Shown: in pieces, positions 38,393 to 60,796 of the stretch
How positions within the stretch are numbered: position 1 is the first letter of the stretch
Layout: the number at the start of each line of letters is the position of its first letter
Origin: Bacilli bacterium
GTDB lineage: Bacteria; Bacillota_I; Bacilli_A; RF39; UBA660
NCBI GenBank assembly: GCA_017409785.1
Contig: JAFQSD010000002.1
Location: forward strand, 1-64,000
Direction: 5' to 3'
Length of the DNA: 64,000 nucleotides
The notes under the pieces: model-generated
What the model was told of the DNA's origin: nothing
The model's database searches: none
Seen by the model: only the letters and a program-made list of their open reading frames with translations
Made by a program: the position numbers and the translations under genes

Positions 38393-38418
38393 AAAAAAAG
38401 AAGCTAAACTAGCTTCTT
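38393..38418 (-). terminator. Intrinsic terminator after the first prepilin-LRR gene
   Basis: AAGAAGCTA pairs with TAGCTTCTT, loop GTT, then seven T on the minus strand; overlaps the gene's end. Confidence 0.85.
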
Positions 38419-40445
38419 GTAACTTCAATATCTCCGTACCAACTCTTAACAGTTCCCGTTTCAAAATAAGCAGTTGATGGTCCACCAGTTATACTCTTCC
38501 AATCAAAACTTCTTCCTGTCTTATTAACAATCTTCGTTAACTCTGAGTTAAAGCTTCCCCAAGATATTTCTTTCTTAAATGCATTACTTCCAATATAAGT
38601 TACTGTCGAAGGAATTGTTACTGTTCCTTTTAAAGAACAAACAGTAAATGCCGAAGAACCAATATATTCCAATCCCTCAGGTAATGTAATTCCTTTAATA
38701 TAAGAATAATGGAACGAACTTGACTCCAGTCTTTTTACATGACTAGGTACAATAACATTATTTGTATATAATGCAGCATATGACAATATAGAAGTCTTGT
38801 CATATCCTCCCCCAGATTTTCTACTATATAGGAATGGTGCCACTTCAGTATCATCACTACCATTTACTACATCAGTTAAATTATTAAGAGCTAAAGGTGT
38901 TCCACCAATAGTTGTAACAGAATCCGGAATCGTAATTGTACCAGTTAAGCTTTGATAACGTAATGCTCCACCATCAATAGTTTTTAAATTTACCCCGTTC
39001 TTCTTCTCAGGAATAACAACATTTCTTCTATTTGCTCCCGCATAGCCAATTAATCTACTATAATCTATTCCGCTTGAACTTCTATAGTAAATCCACATCG
39101 TATTAGGATCACTAACTTGATTATTAGTAAATGCAGCTCCTCCAATATAAGTAACTGAATTAGGAATATTAACCTCTCTTAATCTATTATAGTAAAAAGC
39201 ATTATCACCAATAGATGTTAACCCACTAGGAAAATTAACATGAGCCACATTAGAATAAGCAAATGCTGAACCACCAATTTTAGTAACTGATTCGGGAATA
39301 ACTACCGTCCAATCATGTAAACTCATAGACTGAAATGCACCATTCATAATTTCAAGTAATGGAGTCCCATTAACTTGCGCAGGAATTACAAAGTTTTTTC
39401 CACTAAATTCAGTTAAATCTCCAATGTAACCTCTAACTTTTGAATAATCAACAGTATCACCATTTTGTGCATATAAGAAAGATGGATTAGGTATTGGATT
39501 ATCACAATAACTACATGCACCAAATGATGTAACTGAACTTGGCACTAAAGCAACAGTAAGTTGATTATTTTTAAAGCAACTTGCTCCCATTGTTTTTAAT
39601 CCTTCTTCTAATGTTAAATTAGTTAATTTATTATTGGCGAAAGCCTGACTTTCTATAGATGTAACCGAACTAGGTATATAAAGCTGAGTAAGTTTATTAC
39701 TCGCAAATGCATTAGATCCAATCGTTGTAATTGTATCAGGTATATATATAGATGTAAGATTCATATTATTAAATGCATAACTATGTATCTTATTAACTGT
39801 TTTTCCATCAATTTTTGCTGGAACTGTAACATCTTTTCCACATTCTCTATCATATCTAATAATTGTAATGGTTGTATCAGATGTATCCTCAAATTCATAA
39901 CACTTATCTGCATCTGTTCTAGAAAGTTCTAAGTGTGGATCAAATTCTCTCCACACACCATTCGCATCAAGTACCGCTATCTTACTAGTTTCTCCAATTG
40001 CCTCACGATAATTGACTCTTTTTGTATTTGATTTAAATACATCTCCTCGAACCAACTCATCAGCAAGTTCTAATTCTACTTTCCATCCAGCATTATCAAC
40101 ACTTAACCAATAAAAATCAAATTCACCCTTACCACCAACTGTTACTGCAACATATGCATCTTTCCAATCAGCCCAAGGACTTGGAGTTGGTTTTCTATCT
40201 TCAGAAACATTATTTATATGAATATAATAAGTTTTATCCGGGTCATCTATTTGCCAAGTCTGATTAATAACTTCTTTTTGAACTTCATTTTTAAATGTTT
40301 TAGCATTATTAATATAAGTCCCTTTTCTAACATTTTGTATAATTATTGTTACAGTTGGGATCGCAATCATCATTAAAACACCCATTATTGTAATAACCGC
40401 TAACAACTCAATTAAAGTAAATCCTCGTTCATCTTTTAAATTCAT
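38409..40445 (-). CDS. Prepilin-type protein with BspA-like leucine-rich repeats (copy 1)
   Basis: A 678-residue protein. The N-terminus has a type IV prepilin signal: basic leader MNLKDER, cleavage/methylation motif GFTLIELLAV (cut expected before Phe9) and a hydrophobic helix. A pilin-like neck (about 40-170) is followed by some 15 to 20 BspA/LRR_5-type repeats (for example SIYIPDTITTIGSNAF, QLYIPSSVTSIESQAF). The protein should be displayed on the cell surface as a minor-pilin-like fibre or anchored protein. Its neighbour at 40531-42561 is a tandem copy. No prepilin peptidase or assembly ATPase is in the window. AGGAGC precedes the ATG. Confidence 0.88.
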   Translation of the reverse strand: MNLKDERGFTLIELLAVITIMGVLMMIAIPTVTIIIQNVRKGTYINNAKTFKNEVQKEVINQTWQIDDPDKTYYIHINNVSEDRKPTPSPWADWKDAYVAVTVGGKGEFDFYWLSVDNAGWKVELELADELVRGDVFKSNTKRVNYREAIGETSKIAVLDANGVWREFDPHLELSRTDADKCYEFEDTSDTTITIIRYDRECGKDVTVPAKIDGKTVNKIHSYAFNNMNLTSIYIPDTITTIGSNAFASNKLTQLYIPSSVTSIESQAFANNKLTNLTLEEGLKTMGASCFKNNQLTVALVPSSVTSFGACSYCDNPIPNPSFLYAQNGDTVDYSKVRGYIGDLTEFSGKNFVIPAQVNGTPLLEIMNGAFQSMSLHDWTVVIPESVTKIGGSAFAYSNVAHVNFPSGLTSIGDNAFYYNRLREVNIPNSVTYIGGAAFTNNQVSDPNTMWIYYRSSSGIDYSRLIGYAGANRRNVVIPEKKNGVNLKTIDGGALRYQSLTGTITIPDSVTTIGGTPLALNNLTDVVNGSDDTEVAPFLYSRKSGGGYDKTSILSYAALYTNNVIVPSHVKRLESSSFHYSYIKGITLPEGLEYIGSSAFTVCSLKGTVTIPSTVTYIGSNAFKKEISWGSFNSELTKIVNKTGRSFDWKSITGGPSTAYFETGTVKSWYGDIEVTRS

Positions 40446-40514: not shown

Positions 40515-40540
40515 AAAAAAGTAGCTATTACTAGCTACTT
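40515..40540 (-). terminator. Intrinsic terminator after the second prepilin-LRR gene
   Basis: AAGTAGCTA pairs with TAGCTACTT, loop of 4, then six T on the minus strand. Confidence 0.85.
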
Positions 40541-42561
40541 GTAATTTCTATATCTCCATACCAGTTTCTAACGGTACCAGTAACAAAATTTGCTGCTGTT
40601 GGTCCCTTAGTAATACTCTTCCAATCAAAACTTTTTCCAGTTTTATTAATAATCTTCGTTAATTCACTATTATGAGCTGCCCAACTAATTTCTTTTTCAA
40701 AAGCTCCAGCACCAATTTCAGTAACAGTCGATGGAATAGTAACACTACCTTTCAATTTACATAAAGCAAATGAATAACTTCCAATAGATGTTACACCTTC
40801 TGGTATAGTAACTCCTTTAATATAACTATAGTAGAAACTATATGGTCCTAATGTTTTAACATAACTAGGAATAGTTACATGATTAGTATTATGTCCTGCA
40901 TAACCAATGACATATGTCTTATCAAAACCTCCACCACTTTTTCTCTTATAAATAAGTGGTAACCCGTCATCATCACCAGTTCCATTTATGACATCACTTA
41001 AATAGTTAATCGCAAATGAAGAACTTGTTATTTCTGTGACACTATCAGGAATTGTTAATGTTCCAGTTAAATTAGTATATCTAAAAGCACCACTTATAGT
41101 CTTTAAAGCAACATTATTCTTCTTCTCAGGAACAACTACATTGCTTTTTTGAGCCCCACAATACCCTATTAAAGTAGAATAATCAATACCACTAGATGTT
41201 CTTTTATAAATAAACGCTCTATTTGGATCAGCAATATTATTACGAGTAAAAGCTAAACTACCAATATAAGTAACAGAATCAGGTATACTTATTGCCGTTA
41301 AATTATTACTATAGAATGCTGAATCACCAATATATTGTAAACCATTAGGTAAATTAACAGAGCCTATTCCTGAACCCCAGAATGCATTACCACCAATATA
41401 AGTAACCGTACTAGGAATAACTACATTCCATCCAGATAAACTCATTGACTTGAAAGCACTACTTTCTATTCTCGTTAATGGAATTCCATTAACTTGTGGT
41501 GGAATAATAAAATTCTTTCCACTAAATTCAGTTAAGTCTCCAATATAACCTCTTATTCTTGAATAATCAACAGAATCACCACTTTGTACATATAAGAATG
41601 ATGGATTTGGAATTGGATTATCACAATAACTACATGCTCCTAGGGATGTAACAGAACCCGGTACTAAAGCAACAGTAAGTTGATTATTTTTAAAACAACT
41701 ATCTCCCATTGTTTTTAATCCTTCTTCTAATGTTAAATTAGTCAATTTATTATTTTCAAAAGCCTGACTATTAATTTTAGTAACACTTGCTGGGACATAT
41801 AATTGTGTAAGTTTATTATTCGCAAATGCATTAGAACCAATTTCTACAACTGTATCTGGAATAAATAACGAAGTAAGTCCCATACCATTAAAAGCATATG
41901 AATGTATTTTATTTACAGTTTTATTATCAATCTTTGCCGGAATAGTTACATCTTTACCGCACGTAGTATCATATCTAATAATTGTTATAGTTGTATCTGA
42001 AGTATCTTCATAACTATAGCATAAATTTGCTTCCTCTCTTGTTAACTCTAAGTGTGGCTCAAATTCTCTCCATACACCATTCGCATCAAGTACTGCAATC
42101 TTACTAGTTTCTCCAATTGCTTCACGATAATTAATTCTTTTAAGATTTGATTTAAACACATTGCCTCTAACTAATTCATCAGCTTTTCGAAGTTCAACTT
42201 TCCATCCAGCATTATCAACACTTAACCAATAAAATTCATATTCACCTTTTCCACCAACTGTTACCGCAACATATGCATCTTTCCAATCAGCCCAAGGACT
42301 AGGAGTTGGTTTTCTATCTTCAGCAACATTATTAATATGAATATAATATGTTTTATTTGGATCATCTATTTGCCAAGTCTGATTAATAACTTCTTTTTGA
42401 ACTTCATTTTTAAATGCTTTAGCATTATTAATATAAGTTCCTTTTCTAACATTTTGTATTATTATTGTTACAGTTGGGATCGCAATCATCATTAAAACAC
42501 CCATTATTGTAATAACAGCCAACAACTCAATTAAAGTAAATCCTCGTTCATCTTTAATCAT
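40531..42561 (-). CDS. Prepilin-type protein with BspA-like leucine-rich repeats (copy 2)
   Basis: A 676-residue paralog of the next gene downstream. The first 100 residues, including the motif GFTLIELLAVITIMGV, are almost unchanged, and the LRR region is diverged (TSLFIPDTVVEIGSNAF, SVTYIGSLAF). It has its own promoter and terminator, so each copy is separately transcribed. Known type IV pilins with large C-terminal domains are adhesins; here an LRR domain would serve that role. Function and binding target are inference. Confidence 0.88.
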   Translation of the reverse strand: MIKDERGFTLIELLAVITIMGVLMMIAIPTVTIIIQNVRKGTYINNAKAFKNEVQKEVINQTWQIDDPNKTYYIHINNVAEDRKPTPSPWADWKDAYVAVTVGGKGEYEFYWLSVDNAGWKVELRKADELVRGNVFKSNLKRINYREAIGETSKIAVLDANGVWREFEPHLELTREEANLCYSYEDTSDTTITIIRYDTTCGKDVTIPAKIDNKTVNKIHSYAFNGMGLTSLFIPDTVVEIGSNAFANNKLTQLYVPASVTKINSQAFENNKLTNLTLEEGLKTMGDSCFKNNQLTVALVPGSVTSLGACSYCDNPIPNPSFLYVQSGDSVDYSRIRGYIGDLTEFSGKNFIIPPQVNGIPLTRIESSAFKSMSLSGWNVVIPSTVTYIGGNAFWGSGIGSVNLPNGLQYIGDSAFYSNNLTAISIPDSVTYIGSLAFTRNNIADPNRAFIYKRTSSGIDYSTLIGYCGAQKSNVVVPEKKNNVALKTISGAFRYTNLTGTLTIPDSVTEITSSSFAINYLSDVINGTGDDDGLPLIYKRKSGGGFDKTYVIGYAGHNTNHVTIPSYVKTLGPYSFYYSYIKGVTIPEGVTSIGSYSFALCKLKGSVTIPSTVTEIGAGAFEKEISWAAHNSELTKIINKTGKSFDWKSITKGPTAANFVTGTVRNWYGDIEITSS

Positions 42562-56357: not shown

Positions 56358-57302
56358 CTAATTCAATTGGTTATCTTCATCAGTTACATCTAAATATTTT
56401 TTAACTAATTGTTTTGCAGTTTCCATACTTTTTGCTTTTTCAACTTCATCTTTTGTACTTGCTACAACGCCACATGCAGTTAAGAAAGTAGCATAACTAC
56501 CAATATCAGTATAAGATTCAAATTCTGCTCTTATACCATTTAATCTACCACTAATTCTTCTATCAACTAAAATATTTTTAAAGAAATCATCCTCATATAA
56601 TGGTCTTAAAATCTCTGTTATAGAATCATCAACAACTTCATGTCTAGGACAACTTACAACTTCATCTAAATTTCTTTTAATATCTTCGTTATCAATATCA
56701 ATTAATAAAAACTCATATATTTCATTCATGATTTCATCGCTTTGCATAGCATTAATTGCTTCTTCTGCTTTAATATGAATATTTTCACGAGAAGCAAAAA
56801 CATCAAGTGAAATTCCCATTCTCGCTGCCAATCTTCCTTGAACACTAACTACAGGATTATTCATTGAATTTAATACGTGATTAACTTGATGAATAACACT
56901 TCTAAGTAGTGTTGCTTTATCAACACTTCCATCATTTTGTACATAAACGCATCTATCGAATTTATATTTTCTTCTATGATTTTTATCTACATATTCATGT
57001 CCAGTAACTTCATAAAATGTCCCCGGAGCATGACTAACAATCTCACTGACATCACTCTTAGAAACTTTATATTTTTTCATTAAAAAATCTTCAATAGATT
57101 CATCACAAACAACAAACCTTGTTTTTAAAAAAGCCACATAAATTTCATTTAATGCTTCTTGTCCATAATGCACAAGCATCCCTGCAAAAGCAAGTTCTAA
57201 AACATCACTTAATTCACTACTTGTTCCATTAATATGATTAATTTGTTTAATAATTTCTTTACTATAATTTAATCTTTCATTAACAACATCATGCATACTC
57301 AT
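56358..57302 (-). CDS. Hypothetical helical protein
   Basis: A 314-residue soluble protein, mostly helical. The centre has SVIHQVNHVLNSM, which resembles a metallopeptidase HExxH helix but has Gln in place of Glu-His spacing (HQVNH), so activity is doubtful. Cys residues occur singly. No recognised family. It lies between rpsU and the yqeY gene on the same strand; AGGGGG precedes the ATG. Confidence 0.7.
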   Translation of the reverse strand: MSMHDVVNERLNYSKEIIKQINHINGTSSELSDVLELAFAGMLVHYGQEALNEIYVAFLKTRFVVCDESIEDFLMKKYKVSKSDVSEIVSHAPGTFYEVTGHEYVDKNHRRKYKFDRCVYVQNDGSVDKATLLRSVIHQVNHVLNSMNNPVVSVQGRLAARMGISLDVFASRENIHIKAEEAINAMQSDEIMNEIYEFLLIDIDNEDIKRNLDEVVSCPRHEVVDDSITEILRPLYEDDFFKNILVDRRISGRLNGIRAEFESYTDIGSYATFLTACGVVASTKDEVEKAKSMETAKQLVKKYLDVTDEDNQLN

Positions 57303-57671: not shown

Positions 57672-57812
57672 TTACAAAAAACGCAAACATTTTCCAATAA
57701 GTAAACCCAAATAAAAAACATATTTCAATACTAATCCCATAATAGGAAAACTTAAAAACACTAAAATAATTCTAAAAATATTAACTAAATATCTTTTTAA
57801 TCTATTGGACAT
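57672..57812 (-). CDS. Small hydrophobic protein, likely bacteriocin immunity protein
   Basis: Forty-six residues: a basic start (MSNRLKRYLVN), two hydrophobic helices (IFRIILVFLSFPIMGLVL and YVFYLGLLIG), basic end KCLRFL. The ATG lies inside the 3' end of the upstream bacteriocin gene in another frame (overlap 57797-57812), the usual place of class II bacteriocin immunity genes. The RBS is weak (AAGAG 3 bases upstream), so coupled translation is likely. No family match was checked; the role is inferred from position and properties. Confidence 0.6.
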   Translation of the reverse strand: MSNRLKRYLVNIFRIILVFLSFPIMGLVLKYVFYLGLLIGKCLRFL

Positions 57813-57970
57813 AAACTCTTATCGTTCATTCTTCTAATAGACGATCCAACCGCATGTCCTGCATCATATAATACTTTAAACACTTCTGAAATAGCACTTA
57901 CTAATGTACCAGTTATAGTTGTTCCTCCACCAGAAATCATTTCTAATTTTTCTTCTTCAATTTTCTTCAT
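57797..57970 (-). CDS. Class II bacteriocin precursor A (double-glycine leader)
   Basis: Fifty-seven residues. A leader, MKKIEEEKLEMISGG, ends in a double-glycine processing site (cleavage after residue 15), and the mature part has 42 residues beginning GTTITGTLVSAISEVF. It is amphipathic and has a GxxxG motif (GHAVG), typical of two-peptide (class IIb) bacteriocins, with a single Cys near the end. AGGAAGG precedes the ATG; the start overlaps the stop of precursor B. The neighbouring exporter has the peptidase needed for cleavage. Confidence 0.82.
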   Translation of the reverse strand: MKKIEEEKLEMISGGGTTITGTLVSAISEVFKVLYDAGHAVGSSIRRMNDKSLCPID

Positions 57971-58122
57971 TAACTACACCTTCCTGGATTTGTATACCCT
58001 TCAATTATTCCTGAAATAAAAACTACTAAAGTTGTTATTCCAACTCCAACCGCAAACCATTCAATACCTCCACCAGATATTTTCTCAAGTTCACCATCAT
58101 TTATTTTCTTTATATTAATCAC
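57970..58122 (-). CDS. Class II bacteriocin precursor B (double-glycine leader)
   Basis: Fifty residues if the GTG at 58122 is the start. The leader MINIKKINDGELEKISGG matches the known pattern for peptidase-ABC exporters. The mature part (32 residues) begins GIEWFAVGVGITTLV, has a GxxxG motif (GIIEG) and ends GYTNPGRCS. The gene begins within the end of the accessory gene. Start is uncertain because the GTG has poor RBS spacing; ATT at 58119 or ATA at 58113 would fit AAGG better. The two precursors with GxxxG suggest a class IIb pair. Confidence 0.78.
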   Translation of the reverse strand: MINIKKINDGELEKISGGGIEWFAVGVGITTLVVFISGIIEGYTNPGRCS

Positions 58123-58522
58123 CTTCCCATATAATATTAAATGTTTTTAAGCTAGAAACATTTTTATTCATTATAGAAATATTTACTACATCGTTTACTT
58201 TGTACATATTAGAAATATTAACCTTAATATAAACCTGATTATATTTTTTACCTTCTCTTTCTAAAATATCCTTATCAATTTTAATTATTTCAAATTTCTT
58301 TTTCTTATTTTTTATATATAAATTTTTATTCTTACTAAATAACTTTATCTCATCATTATCTAATACTAATACAACTATATTCTTATTAAATATAACTCCA
58401 TTAAACACTTCATATAAAACAACTTTTTTATTAGAAAAAATTATAATAGTTATAAAAACACATATTAAAAAAAAACTAAATCCAACTAGTACTTTTCCAA
58501 AACTTTCATAACTTTTCTTCAT
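58115..58522 (-). CDS. Bacteriocin export accessory protein (tentative)
   Basis: A 135-residue protein with one N-terminal membrane helix (VLVGFSFFLICVFITIIIF) and a beta-rich outside domain (GVIFNKNIVVLVLDNDEIKLF, YNQVYIKVNISNMYKVNDV). This layout resembles a short form of the HlyD/BlpB-type accessory protein that works with peptidase-ABC exporters. The start at 58522 overlaps the exporter stop; an upstream ATG at 58537 is possible. I see no precise family. Confidence 0.65.
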   Translation of the reverse strand: MKKSYESFGKVLVGFSFFLICVFITIIIFSNKKVVLYEVFNGVIFNKNIVVLVLDNDEIKLFSKNKNLYIKNKKKKFEIIKIDKDILEREGKKYNQVYIKVNISNMYKVNDVVNISIMNKNVSSLKTFNIIWEGD

Positions 58523-60584
58523 AAATTTTCCCATCAATTATTTTTATCCATCTATCAAATAATTTTTTATTATTTAATCTGTGACTAATTACAATAATAG
58601 TTTTATTTTTTAAATAAGAAAACATTTCTTTTAATATTTCTCTTTCTTTCTCAAAATCAATTTGTCCAAATGCTTCATCAAATATATAAATATTACTATT
58701 ACGAAGTAAGTAACGACAAAGAATAATTCTTTGTCTTTCTCCATTACTAAAATTAAAACCATTTTCTTCTACCATCATCTTATAATCAGTATCTCTCTTC
58801 TTAATAATTTCATCAACTTTAGTAACTTTACATACTTCATTTAATAGATCATCATTAATATCTCTTTCTAAAGTTAAATTATTATATAAAGTATCAGTAA
58901 ATAAAAATTCATTACTTGAAACATATGAAATATTCTTTCTAATATTTTCTAAATGATAATGATTAATATCAATACCACTTATTGAACACATTCCATAAGG
59001 TACTTCTAAATATCTCATTAATATTTTAACTAAACTACTTTTACCAGTTCCACTTTCACCCGTTAATAATATCTTTTCACCTTTTTTAATAACAAAACTT
59101 ATATTATCTAATATCTTTTTACTACCAAACTTATAAGTTAAATTATTAAACTTAATATCACCATCTAAAACATAATTATAATAATAAAAAGAACCATTAA
59201 ACTTTTCACTAGTAATTGTATATAAATCCTCAACCCTATCTAATGCAATTTTATAATTATAATATTCATCAATAATATAAATAATTTCTTCAACACTTCC
59301 TAAAAAATAAATTAAAAATGTCTGATATAACAAAACATCTCCTATTGTCATTGTTTCTCTTAGTATATAAATACTCCCCATACAATAAACAACTAATAAT
59401 AAAATATTTTTTATATTATCTTTAATAAATTTACTTATACTAACAAACAATAAATATAAATAGTTTTTTTCTAATAAATCACGATATAAAAGTAAAAATT
59501 TATCACTTAGTCTTTTCTCTATATGTCCTCCTTTTATAGTATCAACATTACTTAACGCTTCAAATAAATAAGAATTTACTTTCTCTTCACCATTACATAC
59601 TTTTATATATAATTTTCTCTTTTTCTTGTTTCTAACAACCATAGTTAGAAACATTAATAATAATAGTCCTAATAAAATACATGTAACGGTTTTATTAATA
59701 AAAAAAATAAAACTAAAAAATAAGAATAAACTAACTCCATCAATAATTAAAATTGAAAATAAACTAATCAAATAATTTTTCACTGTCGTTAAATCTTTAA
59801 GCCTAGTAATAACTTCACCAGTCGTTCTATTCTTATAATATAAATAAGGAAGTAAAAGAATTTGTTTAAAAGTTTTTATTGTTATAGTTTCATCAAGTAT
59901 ACAACTTAATTTTAAAACAATTAAATTTTTAAGTAATTCGCTAACTAATTTAAAGATATATATTACAAAAATAATAATTGAAATAATTTTTATATTAGTT
60001 CCAACATTATAATTAATTGAAAACTTAAGAAGATATTTAAAATTAAAAGAAACTAATATATTAAATATAAAATACATAAGTATTAACAATGATAATACTA
60101 GAAATATTTTTTTATTCTCAAAAAAATTATTTCGTATGGTTTTATAAACCATTCTTTTATTATTAAAAGTTGGAATGTTTTTATTAGGCTTTAATAATAT
60201 AAAGTTATTTGTAGAATGTAATTTAAATTCTGAAAAAGATATTGTTCTTTTTCCTTTAGCAGGATCCATTACTAAAAGTTTTTTATTATCTTTATCAACT
60301 TTATAAATTACTACAAAATGTTTATACTCTTTACTTACTAATAGATGAGCAATGCAAGGTAAGTTATTATTTTCTAAATTTGTCATGTCACCACAAACAC
60401 CTACAGCTTCAAAGCCAATCTTTTTCGCACCCTCAATTAAATTAAAAGCACTTACTCCATTCTTTGTGGTGTTTGTTATTTCTCTTAAATATTCTTTAGA
60501 TACTTCTCCACCATAAAATCTAATAATACTCAAAAGAGAACAAACACCACAGTCTTTAATTCCATCTTGTAATACAATCTTCAT
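58506..60584 (-). CDS. Peptidase-containing ABC transporter (bacteriocin exporter)
   Basis: A 692-residue PCAT that cleaves the double-glycine leader and exports the peptide. The N-terminal C39 peptidase has Gln6, Cys12 (QDGIKDCGVC), His89 (YKHFVVIY) and Asp107 (MDPAKG). Six membrane helices (about 160-420) follow. The ATPase domain has Walker A GESGTGKSS, a signature FSNGERQR, Walker B IYIFDEA and switch His in VISHRL, all intact. The two precursor genes lie downstream in the same operon. AGGTAGGAG precedes the ATG. A structured RNA lies upstream. Confidence 0.95.
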   Translation of the reverse strand: MKIVLQDGIKDCGVCSLLSIIRFYGGEVSKEYLREITNTTKNGVSAFNLIEGAKKIGFEAVGVCGDMTNLENNNLPCIAHLLVSKEYKHFVVIYKVDKDNKKLLVMDPAKGKRTISFSEFKLHSTNNFILLKPNKNIPTFNNKRMVYKTIRNNFFENKKIFLVLSLLILMYFIFNILVSFNFKYLLKFSINYNVGTNIKIISIIIFVIYIFKLVSELLKNLIVLKLSCILDETITIKTFKQILLLPYLYYKNRTTGEVITRLKDLTTVKNYLISLFSILIIDGVSLFLFFSFIFFINKTVTCILLGLLLLMFLTMVVRNKKKRKLYIKVCNGEEKVNSYLFEALSNVDTIKGGHIEKRLSDKFLLLYRDLLEKNYLYLLFVSISKFIKDNIKNILLLVVYCMGSIYILRETMTIGDVLLYQTFLIYFLGSVEEIIYIIDEYYNYKIALDRVEDLYTITSEKFNGSFYYYNYVLDGDIKFNNLTYKFGSKKILDNISFVIKKGEKILLTGESGTGKSSLVKILMRYLEVPYGMCSISGIDINHYHLENIRKNISYVSSNEFLFTDTLYNNLTLERDINDDLLNEVCKVTKVDEIIKKRDTDYKMMVEENGFNFSNGERQRIILCRYLLRNSNIYIFDEAFGQIDFEKEREILKEMFSYLKNKTIIVISHRLNNKKLFDRWIKIIDGKIYEEKL

Positions 60585-60651: not shown

Positions 60652-60761
60652 AAAAAAAAAGAGAAACTTTCGTTTCTCTCTTTTATAGAGGTTGGATCTG
60701 CGCGTGAGTATGCTCTAGGACCTACAGAAAAATAACATTCTTGGTACTAGAACCAACCTCT
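60652..60761 (-). ncRNA. Structured RNA before the bacteriocin operon (unknown family)
   Basis: A transcript of about 110 bases can be drawn on the minus strand. GAGGTTGG (60753-60760) pairs with CCAACCTC (60688-60695), enclosing a second stem TCTAGTACC with GGTCCTAGA (one mismatch) and a loop with AGAA/TTCT pairing. GAGAAAC-GAAA-GTTTCTC followed by nine T (60652-60678) is a terminator. A promoter places the start exactly at the first stem. It may be a free ncRNA or a cis-acting leader of the exporter gene, for which I see no other promoter. It is not SRP RNA (no GGAAGGAAGCAG motif), tRNA or 5S. Confidence 0.6.
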
Positions 60762-60767
60762 AAATAA

Positions 60768-60796
60768 ATAGTAACATAATATTTTGACATATACAA
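60768..60796 (-). promoter_or_regulatory. Promoter of the structured RNA
   Basis: TTGTAT (60791-60796), 17-base spacer ending TGT, TACTAT (60768-60773) on the minus strand, an extended -10. Confidence 0.6.

Follow-up and report, generated by a model that had tools for sequence, protein, structure and literature searches.

A candidate two-peptide bacteriocin operon, widespread in a family of uncultured gut Bacilli and preceded in one clade by a structured RNA

The DNA considered here, which we call the window, comprises the first 64,000 nucleotides (nt) of contig JAFQSD010000002.1 from a Bacilli bacterium (GenBank assembly GCA_017409785.1), whose host family is probably UBA660 of the GTDB order RF39. 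Close to the end of the window, five open reading frames (ORFs) on the minus strand have the arrangement of a class IIb-like bacteriocin operon: an exporter gene, a gene for a small accessory membrane protein, two precursor genes with double-glycine (GG) leaders, for peptides A and B, and a very short third ORF (Table 1). A preliminary description of the sequence had placed all five at these positions as an overlapping chain, and both the positions and the chain were borne out. The exporter and accessory genes overlap by 17 nt if the latter starts at its likely ATG and by 32 nt if it starts at the TTG; the accessory gene overlaps A by 8 nt, A overlaps B by 1 nt (TAATG), and B overlaps the third ORF by 16 nt. 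Judging from these overlaps, the five ORFs may well be translationally coupled. Beyond that description, we find that the operon is a core feature of the family, that each mature peptide carries an invariant cysteine, and that a structured RNA with a terminator precedes the exporter.

Table 1. Positions in the window of the operon genes, the predicted mature peptides and the upstream RNA elements.
Feature	Position	Strand	Remarks
Exporter gene	58506-60584	-	692 amino acids (aa); C39 peptidase, membrane domain, ATPase
Accessory membrane protein gene	58115-58522	-	about 135 aa; likely ATG at 58522; ORF reaches TTG at 58537
Peptide A precursor gene	57970-58122	-	GTG start; 50 codons; GG leader
Peptide A, mature part	within 57970-58122	-	GIEWFAVGVGITTLVVFISGIIEGYTNPGRCS; predicted cleavage site
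Peptide B precursor gene	57797-57970	-	57 codons; GG leader
Peptide B, mature part	within 57797-57970	-	GTTITGTLVSAISEVFKVLYDAGHAVGSSIRRMNDKSLCPID; predicted cleavage site
Third ORF	57672-57812	-	46 codons; candidate immunity peptide
Structured leader RNA	60655-60764	-	110 nt; between upstream gene and exporter; z-score -5.6
Intrinsic terminator	~60655-60685	-	3' end of the RNA
Possible promoter	60765-60795	-	TTGTAT 60790-60795, 17 nt, TACTAT 60767-60772; putative, read by eye

The locus was compared with those in relatives' genomes and in 80 named loci from metagenome-assembled genomes (MAGs), 71 of which have enough downstream sequence. The order exporter, accessory gene, A, B recurs in most relatives and MAG loci, with homologous small ORFs in frame at the same position, in support of the class IIb-type architecture first proposed for the window. 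Among the 71 long MAG loci, 68 contain A and 67 contain B; A stands before B in 69/69 loci, and the precursors keep the same order in 67 of the 71 sufficiently long related loci. In addition, nonsynonymous divergence (dN) between sister species lies below synonymous divergence (dS) for both precursors: 0.10 vs 1.39 and 0.10 vs 0.70 for A, and 0.22 vs 0.96 and 0.24 vs 0.57 for B. Given this fixed order and the low dN, the A and B precursors are real genes under purifying selection. In one genome (G047, contig C2:22880-23444) the A-B pair is tandemly duplicated. In three loci (L074, L077 and L105) the exporter and accessory genes are present, but neither precursor was found within the locus; the peptides were perhaps lost, moved or replaced there.

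Profile searches widen this picture. The B profile matched 356 of 386 genomes of the host family, in 144 of its 150 genera, and the A profile matched 133 of 145. A draw of genomes at the level of the order, which holds this family only, gave B in 138 of 146. At the level of the class, B was present in 51 of 54 family genomes vs 5 of 341 others, and those five matches are marginal and cover the leader end only; outside this family the class practically lacks B. Spread by mobile elements was considered and set aside: A was searched against plasmids and B against phages, each without a match, and the tree of the exporter agrees instead with that of RpoB. UBA660 has been described as genome-reduced (PMC13155120). 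Among the papers searched, none named this family together with bacteriocins, and the IIBacFinder survey may already list some of these precursors.

The exporter and RpoB trees, built from 27 genomes, have 10 of 24 splits in common, the deepest included (support 1.0 and 0.99), and the pairwise distances of the two proteins are correlated (Spearman rho 0.43, p 0.001). Since the trees agree at their best-supported splits, the operon was probably present in the ancestor of the compared genomes. Many weaker splits differ, so local transfers may also have occurred. The window's genome and its closest relative share 99% identity in RpoB and 78% in the exporter. For 41 proteins of the same pair the median identity is 85%; the third ORF (52%), the accessory protein (53%) and B (70%) rank towards the divergent end, with A (80%) nearer the median. 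Such fast divergence relative to RpoB and the neighbouring proteins fits antagonistic evolution. PheT had been considered as the species marker and was dropped in favour of RpoB, given divergent copies in several genomes. In five of them (G006, G009, G022, G031 and G034) PheT is only 31-32% identical to that of the window, vs 46-70% in most relatives, which suggests transfer or replacement within the family.

In Pfam, the exporter matches C39 (5e-32), ABC-membrane and ABC-ATPase domains (ABC, ATP-binding cassette), and it combines the C39 Cys-His-Asp triad and an ABC exporter in one chain, as a peptidase-containing ABC transporter (PCAT) does. Across 20 homologues, Gln6, Cys12, His89, Asp107 and the main residues of the ABC motifs do not vary. 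The triad is therefore intact, as had been stated, and an inactive C39 peptidase in related loci, named at the outset as a reason to abandon the bacteriocin reading, was looked for there and the triad found invariant. A dedicated exporter with a C39 leader peptidase is also what a class IIb operon is expected to carry. The closest solved structure is PCAT1, and ComA structures are also among the exporter's solved relatives.

The accessory protein is harder to place. Its AlphaFold2 model (135 residues, predicted local distance difference test score, pLDDT, 92.2) consists of a transmembrane helix, a small β-barrel and short helices; it gave no Foldseek match at E ≤ 0.001, and the sequence had no convincing Pfam match. 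With VIA-align, the model superposes on the adaptor barrels of Spr0693, BesA, MexA and MacA at Z 6.5-7.2 and on HlyD over 127 residues, helix included, at Z 5.8; since unrelated barrels reach Z 8.0, the fold match alone does not decide the identity of the protein as an adaptor. One genome from a different family of the class has, behind the exporter, a protein that by eye looks like an adaptor of full-length type (366 aa or more, truncated at the contig end). Taking the model and the gene's place together, the accessory protein is probably an HlyD-type adaptor reduced to its membrane helix and β-barrel.

Both precursors have the GG leader and the GxxxG motif initially claimed for them. Invariant positions are the GG, F, GxxxG, P and C in peptide A (alignment A2) and the GG, GxxxG, RR and C in peptide B (alignment A3). 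Mature A, mostly of 30-34 residues, is hydrophobic and follows the pattern F..GxxxG...P..C; mature B, mostly of 38-43 residues, is amphipathic and follows GxxxGxxxRR......C. The F..GxxxG motif is present in A of 64/67 loci and the GxxxGxxxRR type in B of 67/67. As in class IIb, two GG-leader precursor genes lie side by side, and both encode mature parts with helix contact motifs of the GxxxG type. Amphipathic mature parts had been proposed for both peptides, and this clearly holds only for B (moment 0.61); A is a hydrophobic membrane-type helix (mean hydrophobicity 0.84). The two peptides are not alike beyond the leader, their profiles aligning over 18 leader columns only, and searches of solved structures with the peptides returned leader-level or irrelevant matches only.

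A cysteine is found near the C-terminus of every mature A and B in the 67 loci in which both were cut at the GG. Each mature peptide has exactly one in 59 of these loci, the window's pair included, and no locus of the 67 has two in both. One cysteine per peptide leaves no partner for an internal disulfide. The simplest use of the single cysteines suggested by this pattern would be a disulfide between A and B.

The third ORF encodes a membrane-type peptide of 46 aa with a charge of +7 and a GxxxGxxxR motif; in its alignment (A5), two glycines never vary and one arginine hardly does. The preliminary description took it for the immunity protein. The conserved motif speaks for this assignment, the frequent lack of the ORF, taken up below, speaks against it, and on balance an immunity role is plausible. 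Compared with the B profile, the third ORF scores 22.7-23.1, and 200 column-shuffled controls reach at most 17.3 (mean 7.8). This alignment covers the GxxxGxxxR helix, with an hhalign probability of only 49-56%; profile comparison gave no similarity to A. In the gallocin A operon, immunity requires the third gene, gip, which also suffices for it; the modelled structure of the gip product resembles the bacteriocin peptides, and the authors of that work proposed that it acts by competition (PMC10100652). By analogy, the likeliest reading of the third ORF, and a plausible one, is a decoy-type immunity peptide that resembles B.

The leader RNA upstream of the exporter consists of a closing stem, one or more hairpins with a conserved loop, UCACGCG, and the terminator. 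It is nearly identical in two sister species, inside an intergenic region that has otherwise diverged. The possible promoter adjoins its 5' end, with an extended -10-like TATGNTAAAATG at the same place in relatives. A first model, built on three sequences, detected no genome but the window's among 58 searched, and a plain alignment of all RNA sequences gave no consensus fold. A second model with hand-set stems (closing stem, loop hairpin, terminator) gave 27 matches, 25 of them distinct, in 79 sources, nearly all just upstream of the exporter and one per genome where any was found; the match in L078 lacks the loop and is probably due to chance. In L047, inserted repeats separate the RNA from the exporter; these tandem repeats (474-1356) contain a tiny hydrophobic ORF, MSKKDFLIFLQIVIIILLIILN, which is type I toxin-like. 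Twenty of 22 base pairs change on both sides, and the covariation score is 0.522 vs a maximum of 0.147 with slid partners, in an alignment fitted to the structure, which favours covariation, and with part of the sequences having built the model. None of the 4227 models of Rfam 15 matches at the window RNA at E up to 1; in eight sources, the only overlap was a single microRNA model in L059 (E 1.6, 24.7/100 bits), which we take as chance. The RNA is, then, an uncatalogued covarying structure with a terminator, confined to the window's clade.

The position of this RNA upstream of the exporter, together with its terminator, suggests that it controls the operon by transcription attenuation. Pairing of the loop with the ribosome-binding site of the exporter was considered, amounted to about 4 base pairs by eye with none in the window, and was dropped. 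A possibility that we take seriously without favouring it is that the RNA is an independent small regulatory RNA using its loop as a seed, the operon having another promoter. Its own promoter-like sequence, its terminator and the strongly conserved loop would all suit such an RNA, as would the single copy per genome; against it, the exporter almost always follows directly after the RNA, and by eye the stretch from the terminator to the exporter shows no convincing second promoter. This alternative concerns the RNA only and is compatible with a bacteriocin reading of the peptides.

Taken together, the best explanation, to which we give a probability of roughly 0.6, is a class IIb-like two-peptide bacteriocin operon, fixed and vertically inherited in the family, with small-peptide immunity and attenuation. 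The C39 domain would remove both leaders after the GG, and the ABC motor with the reduced HlyD-type adaptor would export the peptides. Outside the cell, the GxxxG faces of hydrophobic A and amphipathic B would bring the two peptides together, a disulfide between the cysteines perhaps holding them in place, and the pair would permeabilise the membranes of related competitors. The third ORF, where present, may protect the producer by replacing B in the pair. Transcription would either stop in the leader RNA before the exporter or read through upon a sensed signal, perhaps perceived at the UCACGCG loop. It is tempting to go further and to propose an ancestral core A-B pair with one interpeptide disulfide, acting as a covalently linked bacteriocin or a factor in kin competition, with immunity by a B mimic and a new attenuator RNA in one clade; as a complete package, however, this is tentative and rather doubtful.

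Several observations weigh against the bacteriocin operon as just described. Peptide B is present in 241 of 252 family genomes that are at least 90% complete (about 95%), which is not what bacteriocins typically show and would also agree with a housekeeping or signalling function. The net charge of mature A and B is small, -1 and 0 for the window's peptides. Neither peptide reaches any curated Pfam or NCBIfam cut-off, and A and B therefore belong to no named bacteriocin family. An ORF in the third position, starting 12-15 nt inside the end of B, occurs in only 42 of 69 closer loci (35 of the 42 with GxxxGxxx[R/K]), and the third ORF profile matches in only 52 of 145 family genomes, nearly always directly behind B; in the one pair computed, dN equals dS for this ORF. 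Finally, TCACGC lies 109-160 nt before the exporter in only 22 of 77 loci (the 1.13 Mb of these loci, both strands counted, contain the longer TATCACGCG only 21 times), so the RNA is not part of the system everywhere.

The near-universal, mostly single-copy and vertical presence of the system, and the many genomes without a recognisable immunity ORF, are what one would expect if the peptides were not weapons at all but a kin signal or a structural component of the membrane, possibly disulfide-linked, with the third ORF as a partner or receptor. GG-leader peptides with PCAT exporters do include signals, as in ComC/ComA. We nevertheless consider this unlikely, since a pair of co-conserved membrane-type GxxxG helices is what class IIb systems typically show, none of the genes immediately around the operon was recognised as coding for a histidine kinase or regulator, and divergence as fast as that described above is less expected of a structural part.

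Less likely still is an ordinary bacteriocin whose cysteines form no A-B bond, the peptides being, for example, homodimers or reduced in the anaerobic gut, and whose third ORF is a generic small membrane peptide for immunity, unrelated to B. The modest hhalign probability of the resemblance between the third ORF and B, and the commonness of GxxxG in membrane helices, would allow for this; however, the family alignments show no variation at the cysteine in either peptide, and the third ORF outscores every one of the shuffled controls. That the exporter has another substrate and the small ORFs next to it are accidental is hardly credible: such ORFs do arise by chance in AT-rich DNA, but here they have family-wide amino-acid conservation, dN below dS in both precursors, GG leaders beside a C39 exporter and a fixed order.

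Elsewhere in the window, two neighbouring minus-strand genes (38409-40445 and 40531-42561) encode leucine-rich-repeat, adhesin-like proteins with prepilin-type N-termini (GFTLIELLAV). They are 72-73% identical in one sister species and were not found in the compared stretch of the other. Beside rpsU, also on the minus strand (56358-57302), lies a gene for a 314-aa protein that is 92% identical in one sister species and 29% in the other; it may have changed fast or been replaced.

As a rule, bacteriocins are regarded as accessory traits that are patchy and often mobile. A two-peptide system kept by about 95% of the more complete genomes in a diverse, uncultured gut family would instead belong to its core, and would offer a way to learn how these bacteria maintain themselves in the gut. 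Gene callers can easily skip precursors of this length, and the system may be largely missing from annotations. The invariant cysteines make a disulfide-linked two-peptide bacteriocin readily testable, the B-like third ORF does the same for immunity by partner mimicry, and the upstream RNA is a testable, uncatalogued regulator.

How does the operon compare with known systems? The exporter matches PCAT1 of Clostridium thermocellum and ComA over its full length, through the C39, membrane and ATPase domains, and shares their invariant triad; it scores 335.8 bits with TIGR01193 of NCBIfam, below the cut-off of 523.85. The accessory protein resembles HlyD-type adaptors and bacteriocin secretion accessory proteins in its place behind the exporter and, as far as the model shows, in its N-terminal transmembrane helix and β-barrel, but it differs in its size of about 135 aa and in having neither a lipoyl domain nor a coiled-coil hairpin. 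Class IIb bacteriocins reach full antimicrobial activity only when the two peptides are present in roughly equal amounts, and they act by permeabilising membranes. The similarity of A and B to bacteriocin models is weak and of leader type: lactobin A/cerein 7B, lactococcin G and Bacteriocin_IIc share with them the GG leader and the general peptide type. With TIGR03949 (lactobin A/cerein 7B), the window's peptides score 17.1 and 14.3 vs a cut-off of 21.5 bits, and with PF10439 (Bacteriocin_IIc), A scores 14.6 vs a gathering cut-off of 27.1 bits and B has no match.

The likeness to gallocin A is of a different kind, consisting of two GG-leader peptides with few charges and with cysteines, followed by a small third gene at the same operon place as gip. 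The gip peptide resembles the bacteriocin peptides and is proposed to compete with them, and the product of the third ORF, with its B-like profile, may be of the same kind. Gallocin-type peptides have two cysteines each, with internal disulfides in helical hairpins, whereas the peptides described here, usually with one each and no internal bond, fall outside that subgroup. Gallocin is induced via a two-component system, and here an RNA leader lies upstream of the operon.

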